From: Desulfuromonadales bacterium
Lineage (GTDB): Bacteria > Desulfobacterota > Desulfuromonadia > Desulfuromonadales > BM103
Direction: 5' to 3'
DNA length: 64,000 bases
NCBI GenBank assembly: GCA_030145195.1
Contig: JAQYVY010000014.1
Span: forward strand, 1-64,000
Position numbers and translations under genes: made by a program. This document shows, piece after piece, positions 3,555 to 53,332 of this stretch; within the stretch, counting starts at the first letter, position 1, and the number at the start of each line of letters is the position of its first letter. The notes under the pieces are model-generated. The model was given only the letters and a program-made list of their open reading frames with translations. It was not told where the DNA came from and searched no databases.

Positions 3555-3632
3555 GGGACACTTGTTTTCAAGTGTCCCCGGCTCTGATCGAGCCTTTCTG
3601 GTTTCAATTGTCCAATGTCAAGGGCTGACCCC
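3555..3632. repeat. REP-like hairpin plus ttgtccaatgtcaagggctgacccc motif
   Basis: A perfect 10-bp hairpin (GGGACACTTG, TTTT loop, CAAGTGTCCC) at 3555-3578 lies 43 bases after selO. At 3608-3632 comes the motif ttgtccaatgtc-aagggctgacccc, which recurs near 5040, 7930, 8207 and 8548, and inverted near 19794 and 20153. The hairpin could end selO transcription, but it lacks a following T-run. Confidence 0.7.
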
Positions 3633-3696
3633 GTTTGTCTAACGTTGATGTGTCTTATCCGCACTACAAAACACCTGATGCTCTCTTGTAAACGGG

Positions 3697-4659
3697 CTAT
3701 ACATGATTACGCAGTTGTAGTTCCAATGGGTGTGGGCTCAGGTAAACCTGCTGCGTCAGGTATGGTTGCTCATATTTCCGGATGAAGTGATTGAGCAGTG
3801 TGATCGGTACGATCAGAGGCATCAGTCCTGAACGATAATCAGTGATGACCTGAAGAACTTCCTGTTTTTCATCGGCCGTGAGCTGTTTTTTGAAGTAACC
3901 AAGGACATGCTGCATGACGTTGACATGCTTCCGTGTGGTTGTCTGCAAGCGCAGCCCTTTCATCAGTAACGCTAGATAGTCCGCATAGATTTGCGCGGTT
4001 TTTACTTCTTTGCCAACAGCTACCAGTTTACCCATGAGACGGTAAATTTCTGGACTGTGGGCGAGCAATAGCAGCTTGTGCCGAGTGTGAAAAACGACCA
4101 GAGCACCACGGGTTTTGCCGTTGGCAATACTTTCCCGCCAGCGTTTCAGGGTAAAGATGATCTCGATGAAATTATCTCTTAAGCCTGGATCATTGAGGCG
4201 CCCATCCTCTTCAACCGGCAACAGTGGAAAATGCTCCATAAAAGCCTTGGCAAACAGACCGATTCCCTGGGTGTTGGGGCTGCCGTTCTTATCATAAAGC
4301 TTGACCCGCTCCATGCCACTGCTCGGCGATTTGGACTTGAAGATAAATCCGCTCAGGTCTTCCTTTTCCAGTTCGGCAACCCGTTTCTTTGCCCAAGCCT
4401 GCATGTTATCAGTGATATCCTCGCCGCTCTTTGAGAAAACCAGGCGTTGGTTGTCCGGTGTGCCGACCAGGCGCAATGTCTCTCGGGGGGTCGGCAATCC
4501 CAACTCAACTTCCGGGCAAACAGGTACGTATTCAACATAACGGCCGAGCGTCTCGGTCAGGAAGCGATCATGTTTATGTCCGCCGTCAAAGCGGACCTTT
4601 TCCCCGAGCAGACACGAGCTAACTCCCAGTCGGATTTTTTCTATAGACTCTGCAGACAT
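3697..4659 (-). CDS. DUF523-DUF1722 fusion protein (YbgA-like C-terminus)
   Basis: The N-terminal part (about 10-150) is a DUF523 domain (LGVSSCLLGEKVRFDGGHK, VPVCPEVELGLPTPRE). The C-terminal part (about 190-305) is DUF1722, the domain of E. coli YbgA. Stand-alone DUF523 proteins include the thiouracil desulfurase TudS, whose [4Fe-4S] cluster uses three Cys. Here Cys16 and Cys48 are present, but the third position reads SKSPSSGM with Ser in place of Cys. As far as I recall this is common in the fused subfamily, so desulfurase activity should not be assumed. Length (320 aa) is typical of the fusion. It is monocistronic and convergent with selO. Confidence 0.8.
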   Translation of the reverse strand: MSAESIEKIRLGVSSCLLGEKVRFDGGHKHDRFLTETLGRYVEYVPVCPEVELGLPTPRETLRLVGTPDNQRLVFSKSGEDITDNMQAWAKKRVAELEKEDLSGFIFKSKSPSSGMERVKLYDKNGSPNTQGIGLFAKAFMEHFPLLPVEEDGRLNDPGLRDNFIEIIFTLKRWRESIANGKTRGALVVFHTRHKLLLLAHSPEIYRLMGKLVAVGKEVKTAQIYADYLALLMKGLRLQTTTRKHVNVMQHVLGYFKKQLTADEKQEVLQVITDYRSGLMPLIVPITLLNHFIRKYEQPYLTQQVYLSPHPLELQLRNHV

Positions 4660-5141
4660 AGGGTCTCCCTATCTAAATAATCGTTTAATCAGTGTAACAG
4701 TTTTCTGCCAGTTGTGTTCACGGAGGAATCTGAGATAATGAATGATAATTAACTGTGAGGTTATTTAAGATCCATTTCAGGGGACGTTGTTGATATATTG
4801 ACATTTGCCAGCATCGCTCCTATTGTCCCCAAATGCCACGCCATGCACGTATAGATATCCCAGGCCTTTTGCAGCACGACAGGGTTATACACGGTCAGCG
4901 GTGAGTCCTGCGTGAGAACGAAGGAAGATTATTTTTGATGGAGCTGAGGTGTTGCGGGACTTGATGAGCTGAATATCACAATAGCGACAACGTCCCGTGT
5001 TCCCTTTTTTTTACTAACCTGGGGAATTTGTTGGCTTGGCTTGTCCGATGTCGAGGGCTGACCCTTTTTTTTATCCCGATTCCCTATCGTTGACCTTGAT
5101 GCCACCATCCAGGTCAATCGAGAGGGAGAACAGTCAACAGG
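4660..5141. other. Intergenic region with repeat copy at 5019-5070
   Basis: No gene was recognised in these 482 bases. A 62-codon minus-strand frame at 4929-5117 translates repeat sequence and is not credible. Bases 5019-5070 (aacctgggg...ttgttggcttggcttgtcc, then gatgtcgagggctgaccc) recur with few changes at 7905-7954, giving a dispersed direct repeat of about 50 bp that contains the ttgtcc-gatgtc motif. Confidence 0.6.
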
Positions 5142-7215: not shown

Positions 7216-7552
7216 TCTCTGACCTCCTTGTCCCTTGGGGCCTGCAAGGCAACCCTTGCACAAACAAAAAAACCCATCCATAGGCTTGGAAGGGTCACGT
7301 CACTTTTTTAGAACGTCCACCTTCCCTATCTGCCGGTATTTTAAAATCCGTTGGTATCAGCACCAATCCACAGTGGGCTGGTTGCTGCAACGACATCGGG
7401 CTTGTTCCCTTGGTCGCTATCGATAAGAAGGTTTCAGTTATATTTTAAAGGTTAGTATCAGTCTGTGATGGTGTGGGCCTCCCTGCCCTGTTGCCTTCTT
7501 GCGTTGTGGGTAGCTTGATGTGGTGGTGTGACAGGATAAGTCATAAGTGTGT
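7216..7552. other. Intergenic stretch without recognised content
   Basis: This stretch lies upstream of the Sel1 gene and should contain its promoter, but no strong -35/-10 pair, RNA gene or repeat was identified. The minus strand has a ribosome-binding site for the Sel1 gene at about 7223-7229. Confidence 0.4.
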
Positions 7553-7590: not shown

Positions 7591-7729
7591 TTCCAAGTGA
7601 GTAAGGCTGCATTTGCTGGTGGACACTTTGCCACCACTGAACGGTTTCAGAATAACCGTCTTTTGCTGCGAGAGCTTGGGATGGGACAAACAATAGAACA
7701 AGAACGAATGCACACAGGACTTTATTCAT
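7591..7729 (-). pseudogene. Truncated gene for a secreted protein
   Basis: A GAGGGG ribosome-binding site precedes ATG at 7729. The frame encodes a textbook Sec signal peptide (MNKVLCAFVLVLLFVPSQALA with cleavage after ALA) and about 25 further residues (KDGYSETVQWWQSVHQQMQP) before running into a REP-like hairpin and stopping. The upstream leader is duplicated near 8048-8179. The most likely reading is a secreted-protein gene cut short by repeat insertion or recombination. A short secreted peptide is an alternative. Confidence 0.5.
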
Positions 7730-7856
7730 TTTCCCCTCTATTCCTCCAAACATTCATAAAACACGTGCAATATAATGATCTTACGTTGTTTTTTTTGTGA
7801 ATTACGTTAAGGGCTAGCGTGGGATCTTATAATCTTATGGACGTCCCGCTTTTCCT
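7720..7856. repeat. Direct repeat of ~130 bp, copy 1 (gene leader)
   Basis: From ctttattcat (start codon region of the truncated gene) to ttatggacgtcccgcttttc, this segment is about 90% identical by eye to 8047-8183. It includes the blocks ttacgttaagggctagcgtg and ggatcttataatcttatgg. On the minus strand it is the 5' leader, with ribosome-binding site, of the truncated secreted-protein gene. Confidence 0.75.
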
Positions 7857-8046: not shown

Positions 8047-8183
8047 CACGTCTTTATTCATCTTCCCTCTTTCCTCCAAAGATTCATAAACAACGTTCAA
8101 TATCAGGCGCTTACGTTGTTTTTTTGTGCATTACGTTAAGGGCTAGCGTGGGATCTTATAATCTTATGGACGCCCCGCTTTTC
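8047..8183. repeat. Direct repeat of ~130 bp, copy 2 (gene leader)
   Basis: This is the second copy of the leader at 7720-7856. On the minus strand it again reaches a ribosome-binding site and ATG-aataaag, but identity ends there and the frame stops within about twelve codons in repeat sequence (ggtcggaccaag). The duplicated unit is thus a leader whose coding part has been lost. Confidence 0.7.
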
Positions 8184-8236: not shown

Positions 8237-8491
8237 TTGGGTGTAGATTCCATTCAAATGTCGCATGAAGCGTGAAAGGTTGCCTCGCGGCGTTTGCACG
8301 AGCAGGTGGTAATGATTCGACATCAAGCAGTAGGCACCGATCTTGACATTCCAAAGCTCGCCCCCGTCACGAAGCAACGCGAGAAAAGTCTCGTAATTTT
8401 CGCTATTCGCAAAAATGTTTTCACCACGGCGGCCACGATTCATGACGTGATACCAGGCCCCTGGATATTCAATGCGTAATGGTCGACTCAT
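8237..8491 (-). pseudogene. REP-associated tyrosine transposase (RAYT, Y1_Tnp), truncated
   Basis: From ATG at 8491 the frame reads MSRPLRIEYPGAWYHVMNRG, then a segment rich in R-G-E-x-I-F, then CLMSNHYHLLVQTPRGNL and FMRHLNGIYTQ. This is the N-terminal half of a Y1/HUH transposase of the RAYT type, with the HUH motif in NHYHLL. Full-length proteins are about 200-300 aa; here homology stops after about 85 residues and the frame enters the gatgtcgagggctgacccc repeat, so the C-terminal half is missing. An upstream in-frame start at 8527 adds non-family residues. It is probably inactive, but it identifies the likely source of the dispersed hairpins. Confidence 0.8.
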
Positions 8492-15400: not shown

Positions 15401-16336
15401 ATTCTGCAAAATAGCTTTATAGTAGCTGTCCTTTTCCGACGTTTCAGGATCAAAGTCGTTAAGGCATTTTTTAGCGAAAGATTCTTCAAACATTGCCTCT
15501 GGAATCAGGCCCTTTTCCTTCGCAAACCAGCAGAAGATAATGCGAGTTAGCAGGCGGATTACGGCGATGCGGTTGCGCTGTTGTTCGTCAGCCACGCCCC
15601 CATCGGGAAAACGGACCTGGTGAACAGCAAAGAAAAACCATTCAGCAATGCGCTGGTAGAACTTCTTGTTGAGCAACTCGATATTGAGAACTTCGCTCCA
15701 AGCACGGTGCAGTTCATCAAAACTAGTAATTGAGCGACTTCCACCTAGTCCCTCAAACGAGAGACTGGCTAATATCTCAAGATGGCCACGATGTGGTTGT
15801 GCGAGGTTGATATCCTGTATCAGGGTGACCTTTCCAAGAACATCTTTCGAAATGTCACGCTTGTGATGGCGGCGGTTGATTATGGCGATGCTAAGCCGAG
15901 CGTCGTAAACAAAAAACACCATTACCGGCATGGGAAACACCCGATTGAGCTTGCGAGTGATCTGGGCGAGTTTGCCACGCGGATAACTATGGTTTTTGAG
16001 CTGAATGACAAAGAAGATGTATGATTCAAACAGTCCAGCTTTGACCTCATTGGTTTGGAATAGATTGAGGGTGCTGCCAAGCTCATCGTCGGTCAGTTGA
16101 AAAAGAAGATCAGCGGCTTTCCACTCAGCAAAGAGGGCTTTTTCTTGATCGAAGCTCTCATCACCACCTACCTCGTTAAGCAAATCAAGTAAGGCTTGTG
16201 GGTTTGCATTGGGTATAGGGTTAATTTTCTCGCTCGTATAACCGAGGATATTCAAAAGATGCAGTGAAGAATTACGAACGTCATCAACATCGAAGCTATT
16301 AAGTGCTGACTTTATTTCATACCGGATATCAGTCAT
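12437..16336 (-). CDS. Eco57I-like adenine DNA methyltransferase (Hma-type)
   Basis: This is a 1299-aa class I N6-adenine methyltransferase. Motif X/lead-in GSFYTPRTIVDYMVNESL is at about 487-503, SAM-binding motif I VLDPACGSGAFPIG at 557-570, and catalytic NPPY in DILIGNPPYKQ at 808-811. Residues 1-460 form a large N-terminal region of unknown fold. The C-terminal region after about 940 (LVPLLRGRHVKRW, NILIATFPS-like segment) looks like a TaqI-type target-recognition domain. No clear N-terminal PD-(D/E)XK site was identified, so a self-contained type IIG enzyme is not shown. The start overlaps the helicase stop (TAATG), with AAGGAG inside the helicase end. It probably marks self DNA. Confidence 0.88.
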   Translation of the reverse strand: MTDIRYEIKSALNSFDVDDVRNSSLHLLNILGYTSEKINPIPNANPQALLDLLNEVGGDESFDQEKALFAEWKAADLLFQLTDDELGSTLNLFQTNEVKAGLFESYIFFVIQLKNHSYPRGKLAQITRKLNRVFPMPVMVFFVYDARLSIAIINRRHHKRDISKDVLGKVTLIQDINLAQPHRGHLEILASLSFEGLGGSRSITSFDELHRAWSEVLNIELLNKKFYQRIAEWFFFAVHQVRFPDGGVADEQQRNRIAVIRLLTRIIFCWFAKEKGLIPEAMFEESFAKKCLNDFDPETSEKDSYYKAILQNLFFPTLSIPIDERKLRTERRFHGKNKHYMDHSRLRYAALFKDVTAPVELFEKIPFLNGGLFECLDYRETRGAFHCEVRVDGFSDHPKNPLHVPDALFFGREMAADLSAELGKKKASAKIDGLIHILNDYKFTVTENTPIEEEIALDPELLGRIFENLLAEYNPETEKTARKETGSFYTPRTIVDYMVNESLKAYLSQKLTEKLSNVTAEDAQVGLDILFAYTEKEHPFTAQEQQALVDAIYDIKVLDPACGSGAFPIGTLQKLLYVLDKLDHHHDRWKERILHDTPAAMRDETRKLLDRSSAEYSWKLGLIQNCIYGIDIQPIAVQIAKLRCFISLLVDFEIKTDEENSGVPALPNLAFKFVAADSLIKPPGEAEEGLFSDPFFERFAQATEDFFFVKSPKEKTRLREQIESLIEEKIDQNEKTLAQQRGTDLAVASHRKELAKRNQAAVARQEYEIALWESYRNLFARRNDFVRFFDIRYFFPEVKTGFDILIGNPPYKQIQTFPKDKKDEWVAQNFKTYAASGDIYCLFYERGAKLLKPGGHLCYITSNKWMRADYGEALREFLATQVNTTSVLDFGMAQNFGSATTYTCILHFNRQESVGTTQCCYAADDRLAMADPEGYFEQNAVVMDGLGGQSWVMVSPQVYRIKQLVAEQGVPLKEWDINIYRGVLTGLNEAFYLTQAERDELVASEPHAEKLLVPLLRGRHVKRWRQDWDGTWLIATFPSQNINIEKYPKLMARLSLIRKKLEPKPLGYKGGSWGGRKTGSYEWYEIQDTIAYKNEFLKNKIIYQEIAQKIPFFYDETGTYTNDTCYIITGDRYLKYLLSLLNSHLFRACFKDNFPVNQGNAYRVKKVFFEKIPIKKPVPETADFFDSLVTAVQLAKRWIEGVTPAPKVVASFLEEVIDACVMEIYFAEHMRERKLDLMDHVRPLLPVDLDSLNEADQWRAVVVFFEQANAPDHTIRNRLMRITSDSPDLLAVIKKEGKV

Positions 16337-19300
16337 TACGGCTCCTTAATAACCAACCACGACACAAGCTCAAAATCTTCTTTCCCTGAAGCCTGTTTGC
16401 TTTGATCGATAAGCTTGCCTCCTCGACCCGACAACAAGCTGGTCAGTGACCTTTTCTTGAACGTATGCACGATTGCAGAAACCGCCTTAGAGAGAAGGTC
16501 ATCATAATGTGACATATCACCACCGTTGCTGGTTTCCGAATTGAACAGATCACATAGTTTATCTAATGGATTGGAATGGCCTGACGCAACGAGACGGAAC
16601 ATCTCTAAAATTTGTTTGGCCTGTGTGAAGTTGAAACGCACCTGCCCATCATCCCGCAAATAAACCAGATAGTGTGGTTGCAACGGATTGACACGCTCAT
16701 TTCCAGCGGTATCTCCAGTCTGCTTCAGGCAGAAAACGACACCAGGCTGCACGATTTGATAGCGTGGGTCGTCTTTGGGTGGTGGCGGCACAACAGCATA
16801 CAACCCTTGGGGGGCTTCTTGTAGCTTCTGCTTATTGGATTCGAGATAATTGGTAAGCTCAATTCTGAAATCATCTAAAGTGAATTCAGAGAGAGAAACA
16901 TTGTCCGACACATCTTCGAGATCGAGGATTTCGTCTTTGAGCTTTTTTAGCTGTTTATCTCGATACTTGAGATCACCCTCAATAAGATCGTGAATGTCCT
17001 TTTCCAAGAGATTGTCTTCGCTCGTTGCGGCAATATCAACGAGTGCCATCCGAGCTTCAACACGGTCTTTAAGGCTGATGTAATTATCCAGATCTTTGGT
17101 TGGCCAGAAGTTAACCAAATGAACACTCTTGTTGCGGCTACCGATTCTATCAATTCGGCCAAAACGTTGAATGATGCGCACTGGATTCCAGTGGATATCG
17201 TAGTTGATCAAACAATCACAATCCTGGAGGTTTTGGCCTTCGGAGATACAGTCTGTGGCGATGAGCAGATCGATTTCTTCTTCTTGCGGCAGGCTGCTTA
17301 TCTTGGCACGACTCTTAGCTCTTGGGGAAAAGTTCGTCAGAATATGGTTGTAGTCGTTTTTGCCCAATGTTGTGCGATTCTCGACTTGCCCGCCGGTTAC
17401 AAGCCCTACATGAATACCTAGCTCCCCTCTAGCCCATTCCTTCATGGCATCATAAAGGTACAATGCTGTGTCTGCAAAAGCTGTGAAGATAAGAACTTTT
17501 CTGTTTTTCTCTCCGTCTTTGTTGATAGTAGGGTTTTTAACTTTGTTCTGTATAAGTTCCTTTAGCAAACCAAGCTTGGCGTCGCGATCAACTGTTACTT
17601 CGCGAGATACATTGTAAAGACTTCTCAGTTGAGCACTATCGTTAGCCAAATCCTCAAGCCACTTATCCAGATCCAAATGCCTAAGTTTAAACTTTATTTT
17701 TCCACCAACTTGCCAAGCATCGACAAGGTCCATATCTTCTGAATCTGTTACTTCCAAGTCATCGAAGTCGAGATCTTCTCCGTTCATTTTCGCTTCTTCA
17801 AGCAACTGAAATGAACGTATCCGTTTTTCTAAAAGTTCGATTTTGTCGACAGTTCTTTTCATCGAAATGGCAAAGGATCGGATGGAACTTTCCAAACGCT
17901 TCAGAAAATTCACTTTCATCATGCCAATCAAATAATACTCGCGGCTAGCTTGTGAAAAGTTTGGCACATTCATAGCCGAGTAATGGTCGCGGTGCTCGTC
18001 TTTTATATAGGCTGATGGGTTAAAAAGAGCCAGTTTGTATTTTTGAATTTCCTGGTTAAGTTGATCGTAAGAAAGAAATTGCCCTTCTAAATCGATAGGA
18101 GGATAGACCGACTTAGGTTTTTCCCTTTTCGGAAATTCGCCGACTTGGTGGATGCTGTCCTTGTAAAAACGCAGGAGATGTTTACGAGAGCGCGCAATCG
18201 TCAATTCATCAAGCAACTTAAAAAATGCGGAGTCGAGTTTTTCGAGCAAATCGCGCACATCTCTCTCAGACTTTTTAGACCATTGTGTAAATACACCTTG
18301 AGCGGATTTGAGGGTTTCAGCCAAGCTTGTAACTTTAAGCGTTTCACTGAAAGCGCTATCTGAGCCTTCTGTAATAAAATAGAACTGATTGCGTAAATCT
18401 CTAAGATTATTATTGACGGGAGTCGCGGACAACATGAGAACACGTGTTTTTACACCACTCTTGATGATGTCATTCATCAATCTTTCATAGCGGCTAATAC
18501 TTACGATGTTCCCCTCTTCGTCTCTCTTGCCTTTGGTGTTGTTTCGGAAGTGATGTGACTCATCAATCACGACCAATCCGAAGTTCCCCCAGTTAACCGT
18601 AGACAAATCAATATCGCCAGACTTCCCTCCATCGCGACTAAGATCTGTGTGACTCATCACGGTGTAACAGAAGCGGTCTTCACGAAAAAGATTAAGTTCA
18701 GAAGGGTTTGCCGCCTGATAGATTGTCCAGTTCTCGCGGAGCTTCTTCGGGCAAAGGACAAGAACGTTTTGATTGAGAAGCTCAAAATATTTTATGACGG
18801 CAAGAGCTTCGTAAGTTTTACCGAGGCCAACACTGTCGGCGATGATGCAACCGTTGTGCTTGAGGATTTTATTAATCGCACCACGTACACCATCTTTTTG
18901 AAAATCGAAAAGGGCTTTCCAAATGTTGGTGTCAGCAATATTGGTGGCTTCGTCAAGCAGGCCACCTTTCTCTTGGTCTTCCAAAAACTCCTTGAAAATT
19001 TCATAGAGCGTTTTGAAATAGATAAATTCTGGTGAATTCTCCATATAGAGTTGCTCAAGATATGTGAGGACATCAGCCTTCACATCCTCAACAAGATCAT
19101 CGTTATTCCACAATTCATCAAACCAACGCTTAAGGTCTTGTCGATCACGATCATCTGCGACCTCTAAGTTCAACTCAACATTGGGGATACTTCCATACCC
19201 AAGGCCTCTTACCGTAAAGTTCGAGCTGCCCATGATAGCTTTTTCGATACCGTGGTTATCAATATGATACATCTTGCCATGGAGAAGATTTGATTGACGG

Positions 19301-19656
19301 ATGGTACGAATATCGACCTTCTTTTCAATCCAAGTTGCACAGTCTTTGGCGACAGCTTTTTGTTGTATTTGATTAGAGAGAACTAGCTTCTCATCCATCA
19401 TCTCGAATGCTTTTTTGTCTATTTTCTCTGGGTCGAGGCTTTTCAGAAAAGAGGGTTCACCAAAGAGAAAATCGAGGTGGTCAATTTGGTTGAGAGAGTT
19501 TCTAAGGCGCTCGTAGGCGTAGATAGTGAAATACGCCGAGACAATGGAGAGTTTAGAGCCTTCCTTTATAGCATCAGCAAGGAAGTCTCCGACTTTTCCT
19601 CGGCCTTGATTATCTCGAATTGCTGAAGGTGGGAGTTGCTGCATTTCTTGCCCCAA
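16336..19656 (-). CDS. PLD-domain SNF2-family helicase (Hma-type)
   Basis: This is a 1106-aa fusion. The N-terminal phospholipase-D-like nuclease domain (about 30-200) has one HKD-type site: LLHGKMYHI (H126, K128) and GSSNFT (143-148). The SNF2/RapA-like helicase follows, with motif I DSVGLGKTYEA (K280), motif II VVIDESHHF (364-370), motif III LSATPVNNN and the second RecA lobe KVLIFTAFAD. Motif V/VI is ATDCISEGQNLQDCD and then QRFGRIDRIGS. The listed start is TTG; an ATG four codons later (19644) is a plausible alternative. It is the first gene of the six-gene operon. Such helicases probably translocate on foreign duplex DNA, possibly cutting with the PLD site. The DISARM and BREX helicases differ in domain content. 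Confidence 0.88.
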   Translation of the reverse strand: MGQEMQQLPPSAIRDNQGRGKVGDFLADAIKEGSKLSIVSAYFTIYAYERLRNSLNQIDHLDFLFGEPSFLKSLDPEKIDKKAFEMMDEKLVLSNQIQQKAVAKDCATWIEKKVDIRTIRQSNLLHGKMYHIDNHGIEKAIMGSSNFTVRGLGYGSIPNVELNLEVADDRDRQDLKRWFDELWNNDDLVEDVKADVLTYLEQLYMENSPEFIYFKTLYEIFKEFLEDQEKGGLLDEATNIADTNIWKALFDFQKDGVRGAINKILKHNGCIIADSVGLGKTYEALAVIKYFELLNQNVLVLCPKKLRENWTIYQAANPSELNLFREDRFCYTVMSHTDLSRDGGKSGDIDLSTVNWGNFGLVVIDESHHFRNNTKGKRDEEGNIVSISRYERLMNDIIKSGVKTRVLMLSATPVNNNLRDLRNQFYFITEGSDSAFSETLKVTSLAETLKSAQGVFTQWSKKSERDVRDLLEKLDSAFFKLLDELTIARSRKHLLRFYKDSIHQVGEFPKREKPKSVYPPIDLEGQFLSYDQLNQEIQKYKLALFNPSAYIKDEHRDHYSAMNVPNFSQASREYYLIGMMKVNFLKRLESSIRSFAISMKRTVDKIELLEKRIRSFQLLEEAKMNGEDLDFDDLEVTDSEDMDLVDAWQVGGKIKFKLRHLDLDKWLEDLANDSAQLRSLYNVSREVTVDRDAKLGLLKELIQNKVKNPTINKDGEKNRKVLIFTAFADTALYLYDAMKEWARGELGIHVGLVTGGQVENRTTLGKNDYNHILTNFSPRAKSRAKISSLPQEEEIDLLIATDCISEGQNLQDCDCLINYDIHWNPVRIIQRFGRIDRIGSRNKSVHLVNFWPTKDLDNYISLKDRVEARMALVDIAATSEDNLLEKDIHDLIEGDLKYRDKQLKKLKDEILDLEDVSDNVSLSEFTLDDFRIELTNYLESNKQKLQEAPQGLYAVVPPPPKDDPRYQIVQPGVVFCLKQTGDTAGNERVNPLQPHYLVYLRDDGQVRFNFTQAKQILEMFRLVASGHSNPLDKLCDLFNSETSNGGDMSHYDDLLSKAVSAIVHTFKKRSLTSLLSGRGGKLIDQSKQASGKEDFELVSWLVIKEP

Positions 19657-21995: not shown

Positions 21996-22025
21996 TCTCT
22001 AACCTCAATCAATATATTGCATATT

Positions 22026-22109
22026 CGATAACCCGGCGGTCCCTCCCGGCCTGGCCGAAATGGATCCGTAGCTTTGCGTCACCGGGTTACCCCGGCTTTG
22101 CCTTTATCG
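22026..22109 (-). ncRNA. GEMM-I riboswitch candidate (cyclic dinucleotide)
   Basis: The minus strand matches the GEMM-I pattern. Outer stem CGATAA / TTATCG is followed by AAAGGCAAAGCC, a CCGGG stem capped by a GTAA (GNRA) tetraloop and CCCGG. Next come the hallmark TGACGCAAAGCTACGG, a variable second arm, and the closing GCCGGGTTATCG. GEMM-I RNAs bind c-di-GMP, and a Geobacter-type subset binds 3',3'-cGAMP; which one cannot be decided here. A terminator follows. The next minus-strand gene is the HIT protein about 260 bases on, an unusual target, so the switch may have lost its original gene. Confidence 0.82.
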
Positions 22110-22185
22110 TTAAATCTCGGTACGTGGGACGCGGCACAAGGGACGTGGAAACCTTTATGCTGCCCTTAGGGCCTGCGACCTGCGT

Positions 22186-22761: not shown

Positions 22762-23598
22762 CTAACCCAGCCCCCAGCTCGACATCACAATCGGCATGAT
22801 CGGCTCACCCTCTTCACGCTGGGCAACCGCTTCGAGGCGAGGGCGAATGCTGGCGGCATATTCGGCGAAGGGCCATTGAGCGAGGATGCGCACCGCGTTC
22901 TCCGGGGTACTGGGGATGATTCGTTCGATATCGTAGACAACCGGGTCGGTGGCGGCGATCGCTAAATTGGCAAAGCCAGCCGCGACGGTTTCGAACAGAT
23001 CACACTCTTGCTGGCTATCGAGAGACTCAAGCCAGGAGAGATAAAACTCAATTACGGCCGCGGTCAAAAGACTACCGCGACATTTGATCAGAATTTCAAC
23101 TTCCTCAAACTCGAGCTCGCGGCAAGGTGCGGTCAACAGCGCCAGAATACGCCGGTCACCGCTAGTGAGGAGCCCACCCAGAACCGCCAGGCCGTTGGCT
23201 AAGGCGCCGCGTTCATATAAGTCGAGCAGTTCACAAGCACCTGCGGTTGCACCCTCTGTGGTTGAAGGGGCTAGCACCGCGTAGTCGAGCGCCGCCGGTG
23301 AAGCCACCGGACGGGCCGGATCGCAGCACACAAAGGGCATCAGGGCGTGCACTCCGCCCTCCCCGGCCAGCACCATATCGACGGTAAGCTGATAGTTGTG
23401 CACCCGCTGAGCCGGATGACTCCGGGTCACGTAGTGGCGATAAAGCAGCATGATCTTCTCCACCAGCTCGGGCGAAGCCGTGGCGGCATAAAGCTTGACC
23501 GCGCCCATGGTGGCGGCATCGAGCTGCTCGTCGCTTAAGCTGAGAGCCTTCTCCGGGTTATCGAGTACTTCATTGAGCTGCACGTCCTTCTTACCCAC
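22762..23598 (-). CDS. Unrecognised helical protein (HEAT-like), 278 aa
   Basis: The frame opens at 23640, but an AAGGAGG lies inside it, directly before a GTG at 23598. That GTG is the better start and gives GKKDVQLNEVLDNPEKALSL. The protein is largely helical with repeated A/L-rich segments (LLDLYERGALANGLAVLGGL, LLTAAVIEFYLSWLESL, GFANLAIAATDPV). It has several Cys but no CxxC pairs, no signal peptide and no membrane span. Helical-repeat scaffolds of this kind often bind proteins. I do not recognise the family. The upstream DNA is the tandem repeat array. Confidence 0.62.
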   Translation of the reverse strand: MGKKDVQLNEVLDNPEKALSLSDEQLDAATMGAVKLYAATASPELVEKIMLLYRHYVTRSHPAQRVHNYQLTVDMVLAGEGGVHALMPFVCCDPARPVASPAALDYAVLAPSTTEGATAGACELLDLYERGALANGLAVLGGLLTSGDRRILALLTAPCRELEFEEVEILIKCRGSLLTAAVIEFYLSWLESLDSQQECDLFETVAAGFANLAIAATDPVVYDIERIIPSTPENAVRILAQWPFAEYAASIRPRLEAVAQREEGEPIMPIVMSSWGLG

Positions 23599-23644
23599 GG
23601 TTTCCTCCTTGTTGATGCGATTAGTAGATAACTCTGCCATATAT

Positions 23645-25415
23645 TTTGGACACAGGCAAACCCTGACAACTACTAGACAAAATCAAAAGCGGCCTCACGC
23701 AGAGACGCAGAGCTCGCAGAGAGAGACCAATCAAGACCAGGCGTATTTTTTTTCTCTGCGTTCTCTGCGTCTTGAGTGAGCGAAGCGAACGGGCGAGAGG
23801 CCGGTTGTGTGTTTTGATCATCTGAACGTATGAACCACTAAAGATACTGTTAGAACCGAATCGAAAACCGTAATTAGCTTCACGATTACAAAGATTTAGG
23901 ACCTTATAATCAGGTAAACCCGGACAACTGCTAGTCATAATCAAAAGCTGCCTCACGCAGAGACGCAGAGCTCGCAGAGAGAGACCAATCAAGACCAGGC
24001 GTAGTTTTTTTCTCTGCGTTCTCTGCGTCTTGAGTGAGCAGAGCGAACGGGCGAGAGGCCGGTTGTGTGTTTTCCCTGTTAAAGGGGCTCTTTGAACGTA
24101 TGAACCACTAAAGATACTGTTAGAACCGAATCGAAAAACGAAATTAGCTTCACGATTACTTCACGATTATAAAGATTTAGGACCTTATAATCAGGTAAAC
24201 CCGGATAACTGCTAGTCATAATCAAAAGCGGCCTCACGCAGAGACGCAGAGATCGCAGAGAGACCAATCAAGACCAGGCGTAGTTTTTTTCTCTGCGTTC
24301 TCTGCGTCTTGAGTGAGCGAAGCGAACGAGCGAGAGGCCGGTTGTGTGTTTTCCCCGTTAAAGGGGATCATCTGAATTTATGAAGCACTAAGGCACGAAA
24401 AGAACCGAATCAAAAAACGTAATTAGCTTCATGATTACTTCACGATTACAAAGATTTAGGACCTTACAATCAAGTAAACCCTGACAACTGCTAGTCAAAA
24501 CCAAAAACTGCCTCACGCAGAGACGCAGAGATCGCAGAGATCGCAGAGAGACCAATCAAGACCAGGCGTAGTTTTTTTCTCTGCGTTCTCTGCGTCTTGA
24601 GTGAGCGGAGCGAACGGGCGAGAGGCCGGTTGTGTGTTTTCCTTAAAAGGGATCATCTGAACTTATGAACCACCAAGGAGAACAAGAAAACCGAATCGAA
24701 AACCGTAATTAGCTTCACGATTACTTCACGATTATAAAGATTTAGGACCTTATAATCAGGCAAGCTCAGACAACTGCTAGTCAAAATCAAAAGCGGCCTC
24801 TCGCAGAGACGCAGAGATCGCAGAGAGACCAATCAAGACTAGGCGTAGTTTTTTTCTCTGCGTTCTCTACGTCTTGAGTGAGCGGAGCGAACGGGCGAGA
24901 GGCCGGTTGTGTGTTTTCCCTGTTAAAGGAGATCTTCTGAACGTATGAACCACTAAAGATACTGTTAGAACCGAATCGAAAACCGTAATTAGCTTCACGA
25001 TACTTCACGATTACAAAGATTTAGGACCTTATAATCAGGTAAACCCGGATAACTGCAAGTCAAAATCGAAAGCGGCCTCTCGCAGAGACGCAGAGCTCGC
25101 AGAGAGACCAATCAGAACCAGGCGTAGTTTTTTTCTCTGCGTTCTCTGCGTCTTGAGTGAGCGGAGCAAACGGGCGAGAGGCCGGTTGTGGGTTTTCCCC
25201 GTTAAAGGGGATCATCTGAATTTATGAAGCACTAAAGATACTGTTAGAACCGAATCGAAAACCGTAATTAGCTTCACGATTACTTCGAGATTATATCAAG
25301 ATTATAAAGATTTAGGACCTTATAATCGGGTAAACCCGGATAACTGCTAGTCAAAACCAAAAACTGCCTCACGCGGAGCGAACGGGCGAGAGGCAGGTTG
25401 TGTGTTTTCCTAGTT
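23645..25415. repeat. Tandem array: seven ~280-bp units, six with a long hairpin
   Basis: Anchors cgcagagacgcagag (or its variant) occur at 23698, 23956, 24237, 24516, 24802 and 25081, with a deleted unit at 25372, spaced 258-291 bases apart. Each full unit has four parts: gaaccactaaagatactgtt-type text; gtaattagcttcacgattac and aaagatttaggaccttata; a hairpin with arms GACGCAGAG..CGCAGAG and CTCTGCG..CTCTGCGTC (about 17 pairs, T-rich loop); and gagtgagcgaagcgaacggg, then cgagaggccggttgtgtg. Units are about 90% alike by eye. The last unit has lost the hairpin between acgc and ggagcg. Open frames across it are translation artefacts. No repeat-spacer pattern, so it is not a CRISPR array. Confidence 0.9.
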
Positions 25416-25445
25416 AAATCGGGTTATCTGCTCACAGCAAACAAA

Positions 25446-26222
25446 TCAACCAAAGGCCCGGGACGACTTGGAGTTCATATGCACATGCACGCTCGGAGTG
25501 AGTCCTTGTTCAATTTCGATTTGACCGACGGTGTAATCATATTTGCTGGCATATTGATCCAGCGCATAAGCGCTTTGAATGCCCTTGATCAGCACCCGCT
25601 GACCTTTGGTGAGGGTCTCCAGATTCTCCAGCAGCTCGACTAATTTATCTTGTCCATCAACACACTGCTCAATAACCACCGTCACGCTGGGGGTCACCGA
25701 CATTGACACCTTGATGTCACCGACAATAAAGCCGCATTTTCTCAAAAACGGCTCAAGCGTCTTGATCTCTTCCAGGGCTGTTGCCACCCACTCAAGCGAT
25801 TTATCTTTGGCGAGACTCAGGGTATCAGTCGACGCGGCTTTGGCTTTTTGTACCAAACCTTTCAAGCGGGAGGTCTGGCTGGTGTCTTCTGGCGCAGCAG
25901 CGGTCAACGCATCGGCCTCAGGCGCTACTTCGGGTACTACAACAGGTGCTGCTTGGGGTGCCGCGACTTCTGCGGCGACAGCAGGCTCGGCAACGGCAAC
26001 AGGAGCTGCAGGCTCAGTGGCTGAGATGTGAGCTGCCAGCAAGCTGTGAATTTTCTCGAGCTTGTCGATATTTTGTTTCGCTTTCGCCGCAACAGTCTCA
26101 TCGCTAGCCATCAGTTGCTGGTCAAAACGAGCCTTCATGGCACGGGTTTTCTCATCCAATTGAGCGAGAGTCGCATTCGCATCCAGGCCCATGGCCGTAA
26201 AAAATTTATCCAGTTTTTCCAT
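25446..26222 (-). CDS. Unrecognised protein with Ala/Pro-rich linker, ~258 aa
   Basis: The frame opens at 26321. The ATG at 26222 (MEKLDKFFTAMGLDANATLA) seems the likelier start, because the first 33 codons are unlike protein, but its ribosome-binding site is weak. The N-terminal part (1-75) is a helical coiled coil. Residues about 75-115 are an Ala/Pro/Val-rich linker (AEPAVAAEVAAPQAAPVVVP). The C-terminal domain is alpha/beta with two similar strands (VSMSVTPSVTVVIEQCVDG and IEIEQGLTPSVHVHM), suggesting an internal duplication. No signal peptide. I do not know the family. It borders the repeat array. Confidence 0.6.
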   Translation of the reverse strand: MEKLDKFFTAMGLDANATLAQLDEKTRAMKARFDQQLMASDETVAAKAKQNIDKLEKIHSLLAAHISATEPAAPVAVAEPAVAAEVAAPQAAPVVVPEVAPEADALTAAAPEDTSQTSRLKGLVQKAKAASTDTLSLAKDKSLEWVATALEEIKTLEPFLRKCGFIVGDIKVSMSVTPSVTVVIEQCVDGQDKLVELLENLETLTKGQRVLIKGIQSAYALDQYASKYDYTVGQIEIEQGLTPSVHVHMNSKSSRAFG

Positions 26223-26494
26223 AAAATCAATCTTCGCTTCAGCCGAAGCGCTCCTTGGTAACCTGCACTTACCCTGTTGTGAGTTAGAACTCATAATGCG
26301 GGACAGCTTAACACAACTCAACCACTAAGACACGAAGGACCCGAAGTTTAACGTAGTAATGTCAAAGGTTTTCTTAGTGTACTTAGGGCCTTGGTGTTTA
26401 TTAAAGCCCTTCGATTCGATTAAAATACTTTACTTTTGTCCCCGAGCTAAGTATTTTTAGAACTTCACATGGTGCTTCTGAAGCATCGTGTTTG

Positions 26495-53178: not shown

Positions 53179-53332
53179 CTTATGACTCCTTAATTATCGC
53201 AATGACTGCGGCATGATCGTGCTCAAATAGCTACGGCTATTACTCTCAAAAGAGCTAAAATATGGTCTCAAACATTCAAATTTTCGCTTCAGCCCTGATA
53301 GTCCGACAAGCTGCTAGAGGTCTGTTGTGATT

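Follow-up and report, generated by a model that had tools for sequence, protein, structure and literature searches.

What kind of DNA forms the ordered array of hairpins that lies between two genes without a recognised family in a Desulfuromonadales genome, and how could it have arisen? Comparison of the array with other loci in its genome, its order, and beyond, carried out on the 64,000-nucleotide stretch that contains it (the window), indicated that it is probably a tandem amplification of gene-less, MITE-like derivatives of a palindromic cassette carrying a GxxExxY gene, with the cutting, the mobility, and the recognition of the arms being putative properties of such a cassette.

Tandem Repeats Finder placed a single tandem array at 23816-25378 (period 279, score 2305, 87% matches) and manual alignment resolved it into seven head-to-tail units of ~279 bp spanning 23651-25432, confirming the seven-unit array of ~280-bp repeats described in the earlier note. 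The features of the array and its flanks were:

22762-23640, - strand: gene on the left flank, 292 aa, without a family match
23651-23908, + strand: unit 1, hairpin at 23693-23801
23693-23720, + strand: unit 1 left arm, outer stem followed by tandem CGCAGAGA repeats
23754-23801, + strand: unit 1 right arm, CTCTGCG repeats followed by the END motif AGTGAGCGAAGCGAACGGGCG (23775-23795) and the outer stem
23909-24189, + strand: unit 2, hairpin at 23951-24059
24190-24468, + strand: unit 3, hairpin at 24232-24338, single-strand DNA fold z -5.4
24469-24754, + strand: unit 4, hairpin at 24511-24626, left arm with one additional 9-bp repeat
24755-25033, + strand: unit 5, hairpin at 24797-24903
25034-25324, + strand: unit 6, hairpin at 25076-25182
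25325-25432, + strand: unit 7, inner hairpin deleted, outer stem remaining at 25367-25394
25446-26321, - strand: gene on the right flank, 291 aa, without a family match, sharing its strand with the left-flank gene

A long hairpin was present in units 1-6 with a stem exceeding the ~17 pairs first attributed to it, as tandem CGCAGAGA repeats pair with CTCTGCG repeats to form an inner stem of ~19 pairs interrupted by a small bulge, and the outer stem GGCCTC/GAGGCC contributes ~10 more pairs. RNA folding of these six hairpins gave -57.1 to -61.7 kcal/mol and unit 3 folded as single-stranded DNA at -33.7 compared with -17.9 +/- 2.9 for shuffled sequences, a value equalled by 0 of 200 shuffles. The clean loss of the hairpin claimed for the last unit applied to the inner hairpin, while the outer stem was kept with a matched change (CTGCCTC/GAGGCAG). 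The left arm of unit 1 was a short form without a counterpart of the END motif found in symmetrical copies of the element. Identity among units 1-6 was 96% in the hairpin and 89% in the linker, and all units including unit 7 were 81-95% alike; as units 1-6 differ to this degree, they are not exact duplicates introduced by an assembler. By eye, relatedness among the units was mosaic (e.g., a linker variant common to units 3 and 6), as would be expected from unequal crossing-over or gene conversion.

Several standard identities were rejected for the array. A CRISPR array was ruled out by the 279-bp unit and by linkers that are 89% identical, compared to repeats of 24-48 bp with unique spacers, and a known RNA family by the lack of an Rfam match above the gathering score in the array, the Rfam matches of the window (one tRNA and two riboswitches) all lying outside it. 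A sigma-70 promoter reading was unsupported, with 0 promoter-like sites in the array vs 2.3 expected. Terminator-like sites numbered 6 vs 2.3 expected, all located at hairpin left arms, an excess that is due to the repeat itself. The flanking genes stayed unrecognised as first described, neither having a match in Pfam at E 0.01 or in NCBIfam at E 0.001, and the left-hand gene had no octamer-motif cluster in its flanks of up to 1.5 kb in eight fetched loci of relatives. A search of the window for a GxxExxY remnant found none, and the array had no close empty site for comparison.

Other features of the window were recorded in passing. The two riboswitches are a c-di-GMP-I riboswitch on the - strand at 22024-22112, near the array-flanking genes, and a SAM riboswitch at 7323-7429. 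A 1106-aa SNF2-like helicase is encoded at 16336-19656 and showed partial similarity, far under the cut-off, to anti-phage helicases including DISARM DrmD. A further repeat at 53226-53321, apparently partly palindromic, was common to contigs C61, C71, and C92 (80-90% identical).

Searches with the array located its element elsewhere. The whole array matched its own genome 41 times, including the array itself, and the matches outside it covered the hairpin parts. The right arm runs on into the motif AGTGARYGNARNGAACGGGCG, named END, which at up to 1 mismatch occurred 22 times in the window's genome (six in this array and five in a second tandem array with 164-bp spacing on contig C50) and 20, 15, 5, and 1 times in four relatives, compared to 0 occurrences of the reversed pattern used as a control in all five genomes. 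The search of the unit across genomes that had been proposed was run with a longer exact pattern in one genome per species for 84,980 species, a sampling that may omit very near genomes, and returned 11 stretches that were all titled as Desulfuromonadales or Desulfuromonadaceae metagenome-assembled genomes. Several of these were symmetrical, with END and octamers at both ends, compared to the asymmetrical window copy whose left arm is without the END part; the asymmetrical form was also found at L155 and L158. Target-site duplication was not evident by eye at the few symmetrical copies viewed (L085-L087). A further tandem array with ~153-bp spacing was present in Desulfuromonadaceae STCSWMC_67, and two genomes (G041 and G043) had END motifs and no PF13366 match. 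The presence of similar text in other genomes was thus borne out, both by these searches and by the arms of GxxExxY loci.

The arms of the window's units are those of a GxxExxY cassette in relatives. In STCSWMC_67, one window-type element within the tandem array (L083) encloses a single ORF that is a GxxExxY gene (PF13366, E 7e-43; TIGR04256, E 1.6e-44). GxxExxY is a small PD-(D/E)XK-family protein of ~125 aa and the full cassette carries this one gene, no second gene being found inside the frames read: the left arm of tandem 8-9-bp repeats is followed by the gene and then by a right arm of the same repeats inverted. Of 116 GxxExxY genes, 12 had END (up to 4 mismatches) no more than 400 bp away and nine of these had it on both sides; its density was 36 matches in 92 kb of GxxExxY flanks compared to 5 in 300 kb of control DNA. 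Since the remaining 104 loci had no END nearby, the window's arm type is a minority type. The gene was flanked by tandem units of the window type in L262 and L140, where the sequence was read, and lay between such units in L224 as judged from END spacing; L139, a locus of another arm type in the window's genome, had a tandem frame from which, by eye, most of the gene was missing. Within 700 bp, a locus's own arm recurred in extra copies at 37 of 95 loci, compared to 0 of 95 when the arm was tried on another locus. As tandem window-type units flank genes and extra arm copies recur, the window array is best read as the cassette arrangement minus its gene, and its units are likely gene-less derivatives of the GxxExxY cassette. 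The suggestion in the earlier note of an amplified mobile unit was therefore close, with movement being the part that is inferred. Points against this reading include the lack of a GxxExxY remnant in the window, the END motifs of G041 and G043 in genomes without a PF13366 match, and the lack of evident target-site duplication.

The framing of GxxExxY genes extended far beyond this arm type. Within the order, at least one GxxExxY gene was present in 84 of 136 genomes. Framing was scored as the best local inverted match between the 400 bp upstream and the 400 bp downstream of the gene for 118 loci (9 + 29 + 80), of which two were dropped for short flanks; here and in the later set the loci were high-scoring among the matches listed and not random draws. 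An initial control that mismatched the partner flanks placed 7 of 36 loci of the first set above its 99% point (medians 17.75 vs 9.5). It was strict, because the arms of different loci resemble each other, and control ORFs of the same genomes served as the control afterwards. The median score was 17.5 for the 116 GxxExxY loci vs 9.5 for 208 control ORFs, which were taken from 20 stretches in 20 of these genomes, at round positions picked by hand and not at random. A score of at least 14, a threshold fixed after viewing the first set and then left unchanged for the later one, was reached by 95 of 116 loci and by three of the 208 control ORFs (Fisher test, p 1e-56), leaving 21 loci below it. The later set of 29 loci drew on 29 genomes, with L308 the sole locus from the window's class and the other 28 from outside it; after one was dropped for a short flank, 25 of 28 scored at least 14 and three fell below. 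By eye, the inverted matches were mostly tandem 8-9-bp repeats such as ACCACAGAGGCACAGAGACACAGAGAA, with further arm types built of CACCAAGG, CGCAAAGG, CACGGAAA, CACGAATG, and CGCAGATGAA, and L296, L297, and L313 had inverted repeats of other kinds.

Plasmids and viral contigs also carried the gene. Among eight plasmid records, those from Gemmatirosa, Bernardetia, and Bacteroides were clearly framed by score, so that framed plasmid loci include Gemmatimonadota and Bacteroidota, and the Fusobacteria, Treponema, Prevotella, and Persicobacter loci (four of the eight) scored 10.5-12, within the control range. The Sphingomonas plasmid locus scored 12 because the annotated gene end extends into the right arm, and its arms were visible in the alignment of occupied and empty sites: compared to the empty fabD-fabG junction of S. 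paeninsulae, the gene plus its arms sit between both genes. Three viral contigs with a good match were framed, scoring 16.5-23.5; in one of the three the gene contains a stop. A fourth, with a weak partial match, was unframed, and the L083 protein had no match in 50,697 phage records. On the Fusobacteria plasmid (L181), the stretch CAGATTTAATCCGTGTACCTAT was directly repeated on both sides of the gene, possibly a duplication at insertion. In L139, L144, L162, L167, L170, and others, the open frame of GxxExxY reaches upstream into the arm repeats (HHGDTEK, HHRGHGGHRE, NHRGTETQRK). Predicted start sites of the family may be wrong for this reason and need care.

Arm sequence tracks protein subfamily rather than host genome. 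This was measured at 102 of the 116 loci, the 14 with a framing score <13 being left out. With syntenic loci included, protein identity correlated with shared arm 6-mers between genera (r 0.46), and the nearest protein of a foreign genus shared more arm sequence than same-genome siblings did in 53 cases vs 6, with one tie. Outer flank sequence was common to 123 locus pairs, so part of this pattern is vertical inheritance. The analysis was redone after exclusion of the 184 between-genus pairs whose flanks showed similarity of any degree under a looser cut-off and gave r 0.41, a value reached in 0 of 5000 permutations; at 60 loci with siblings in the same genome, more arm sequence was shared with the nearest protein of another genus than with the siblings in 47, less in 10, and the same in three. 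The correlation is consistent with inheritance and transfer of the gene and its arms as a whole unit and is not by itself proof that the protein reads the arms.

Differing cassettes also occupied one and the same site. Both flanks were conserved at 13 sites holding at least two of the loci, some of which look vertical as subfamily and arms are alike and others of which do not. Between one gene pair, L170, L176, and L251 contained three subfamilies with three arm types. After gmd (identified by its C-terminal motif), L157, L241, L247, and L262 held three clearly different subfamilies with four arm types, and L151, L155, and L158 held one further related type. The fcl motif was found downstream in six of these seven loci, and the fetched stretch of L262 was too short to tell. 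The gmd-fcl pair of the window's own genome (L033; gmd model match of 599 bits, cut-off 415; fcl match of 487 bits, slightly short of its 500-bit cut-off) had no cassette. One intergenic site contained a GxxExxY cassette in 11 loci (L144, L141, L173, L222, L240, L243, L246, L268, L271, L275, and L285), which belong to several families of the order and have at least three arm types.

Alignment of 22 GxxExxY proteins showed G22, E25, Y28, D66, E76, K78, Q90, and Y94 to be invariant in 22 of 22, which we take to be the motif set of RecB/Cas4-type PD-(D/E)XK nucleases, and weak Cas4 profile matches to the proteins agree with this set. D66, E76, and K78 are putative catalytic residues, and a nuclease action is predicted from family membership. 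A sequence search of solved structures with the GxxExxY protein found no relative (best E 0.23) and a structure model had a pLDDT of 51, too poor to use. Four proteins scanned with PADLOC gave weak and partial matches (best E 8e-5). Passages of three papers name GxxExxY or PF13366 in passing and without mention of repeats (PMC8934634; PMC12085832; PMC9756366). A search of open PMC text, a scope that leaves preprints and most subscription journals outside, returned no link between GxxExxY and repeats, including in the passages found of PMC3543383, PMC2700814, and PMC3733652.

Three other explanations were weighed against these data. Hairpins of this kind might be REP- or TIR-type elements moved by an IS200-like Y1 transposase (RAYT or TIRYT), as known in many bacteria. 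For such systems the passages seen describe TIR repeat families, TIRs that border RAYT-like genes, and clusters of REPs tandemly repeated with flanking DNA (PMC3733652). The window's genome has five Y1_Tnp matches, one inside the window, and on contig C7 a RAYT-like gene adjoins a real half-element. Yet the CORE or END motif (END with up to 3 mismatches) was present at just 2 of 26 Y1_Tnp loci in five genomes, namely the five of the window's genome and 21 in four relatives, and END stands far above background in the flanks of GxxExxY instead. RAYT/Y1 transposase was consequently rejected as the general partner, and this origin of the hairpins is highly improbable. An unlikely explanation is that the arms are host sites, bound by regulatory or nucleoid proteins or acting as mRNA-stabilizing hairpins, among which insertion of GxxExxY is merely tolerated. 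Paired opposite-strand tandem-repeat sites of Geobacter metallireducens have been proposed, in the text consulted, as sites of global regulators (IHF/HU; PMC2700814), and GxxExxY was in sense with both neighbors at 24 of 30 loci having both in view vs 80 of 226 control triplets of unfiltered ORFs, which may understate co-direction, suggesting that arms would often lie within transcripts. Host sites would not account for arms that follow the protein subfamily and not the genome, nor for one site holding differing sets of gene plus arms.

The repeated occupation of the same sites, together with the weak Cas4-like and defence-candidate profile matches, would also suit a reading in which GxxExxY cassettes are the cargo of an unknown recombinase that recognizes the sites or the arms, the nuclease being otherwise employed, e.g., in defence. 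Against this reading, which is judged quite unlikely, the frames read contained a single gene, gene-less copies retain the same arms, and the PADLOC matches were weak and partial.

Repeats near Y1_Tnp genes were noted separately. Contig C7 (L042) has two 305-bp direct copies (95%) containing the half-element at 1217-1521 and 3609-3913, one preceding the RAYT-type gene and the other an AAA_14/DUF4143 gene. On contig C26, both flanks of a Y1_Tnp gene match window positions 4780-4996, where they are juxtaposed (102 bp at 89% and 128 bp at 81%); the stretch appears to derive from that RAYT-type element by loss of the gene. A ~135-bp direct repeat, 90% identical, lies at 7720-7854 and 8052-8183 beside the Y1_Tnp match at 8237-8458.

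If the array does descend from the GxxExxY cassette, a tentative mechanism of folding, cutting, and repair may be proposed for the arms and their nuclease, although we consider it somewhat doubtful. Arms would fold into a hairpin once single-stranded, e.g., at a replication fork, the cognate nuclease would cut at or near the folded arms, and repair against another copy could spread, exchange, or tandemly duplicate the unit. Gene-less units might result from deletion between arms, with tandem growth possible afterwards. In the window, one gene-less copy plus ~170 bp of linker would have been amplified head-to-tail into the array, and amplification of the same kind also took place on contig C50 and next to GxxExxY genes of relatives. 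The window copies would require the nuclease to be supplied in trans. Three GxxExxY genes were found in the window's genome, none with window-type arms, and as no nuclease of the matching type was found there the array is probably an orphan now changing solely by slippage and unequal crossing-over.

A broader proposal, with about an even chance of being right, is that GxxExxY cassettes are a distinct and phylum-spanning class of minimal selfish DNA. Its members would encode a Cas4/RecB-like nuclease recognizing its own arms, settle in sense between genes of operons, exchange units at shared sites, and shed gene-less palindromes that include the window array and many CGCAGAGACGCAGAG-type repeats of environmental genomes. 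This would connect two things without an explanation found in open PMC text, namely the inverted tandem-octamer repeats of environmental genomes and a protein family named by its motif. If true, a nuclease without an adjacent transposase or integrase spreads via its own folded arms, and the repeats and the GxxExxY protein are both directly testable. The novelty of this tie is limited to the open PMC literature.

The gene-less units can be compared to the MITEs of DDE insertion sequences, which are short and gene-less with long terminal inverted repeats common to a gene-bearing partner. Both share inverted arms with such a partner, whereas the partner gene here is of a nuclease family and the few copies viewed by eye had no evident target-site duplication. 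Free-standing homing endonuclease genes are lone nuclease genes in tight intergenic sites. The cassette resembles them in its lone nuclease-family gene and in the same sites being occupied across genomes; it differs in its inverted arms, which frame the gene and vary together with the protein, and its nuclease action is putative. A homing endonuclease would cut the empty site and repair would copy the gene into it; for the cassette, occupied and empty sites were both seen. The family TIGR04256/PDDEXK_3 PF13366 provides the gene within full cassettes, and in the text available it is named by its motif only with no repeat association described. The G. metallireducens repeat sites, compared by passages and legends, differ in being described as regulator sites; its class 4 sites were rejected as a match on the legend motif CCYTC, class 2 being nearer (PMC2700814). 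Parallels in organization are the REP/BIME and TIR systems with RAYT or TIRYT (REPtrons and TIRtrons), which in the passages seen likewise combine intergenic palindromes, gene-less copies, tandem clusters with flanks, and one small enzyme gene (PMC3733652). Palindromes of REP/RAYT elements bear a GTAG or CGTC tag at one end, and the outer ends of the window's hairpins read GGCCTC/GAGGCC. The enzyme there is an HUH Y1 transposase, in contrast to the PD-(D/E)XK-family GxxExxY protein and the mostly inverted tandem 8-9-mer arms of the cassettes from which the window array probably derives.
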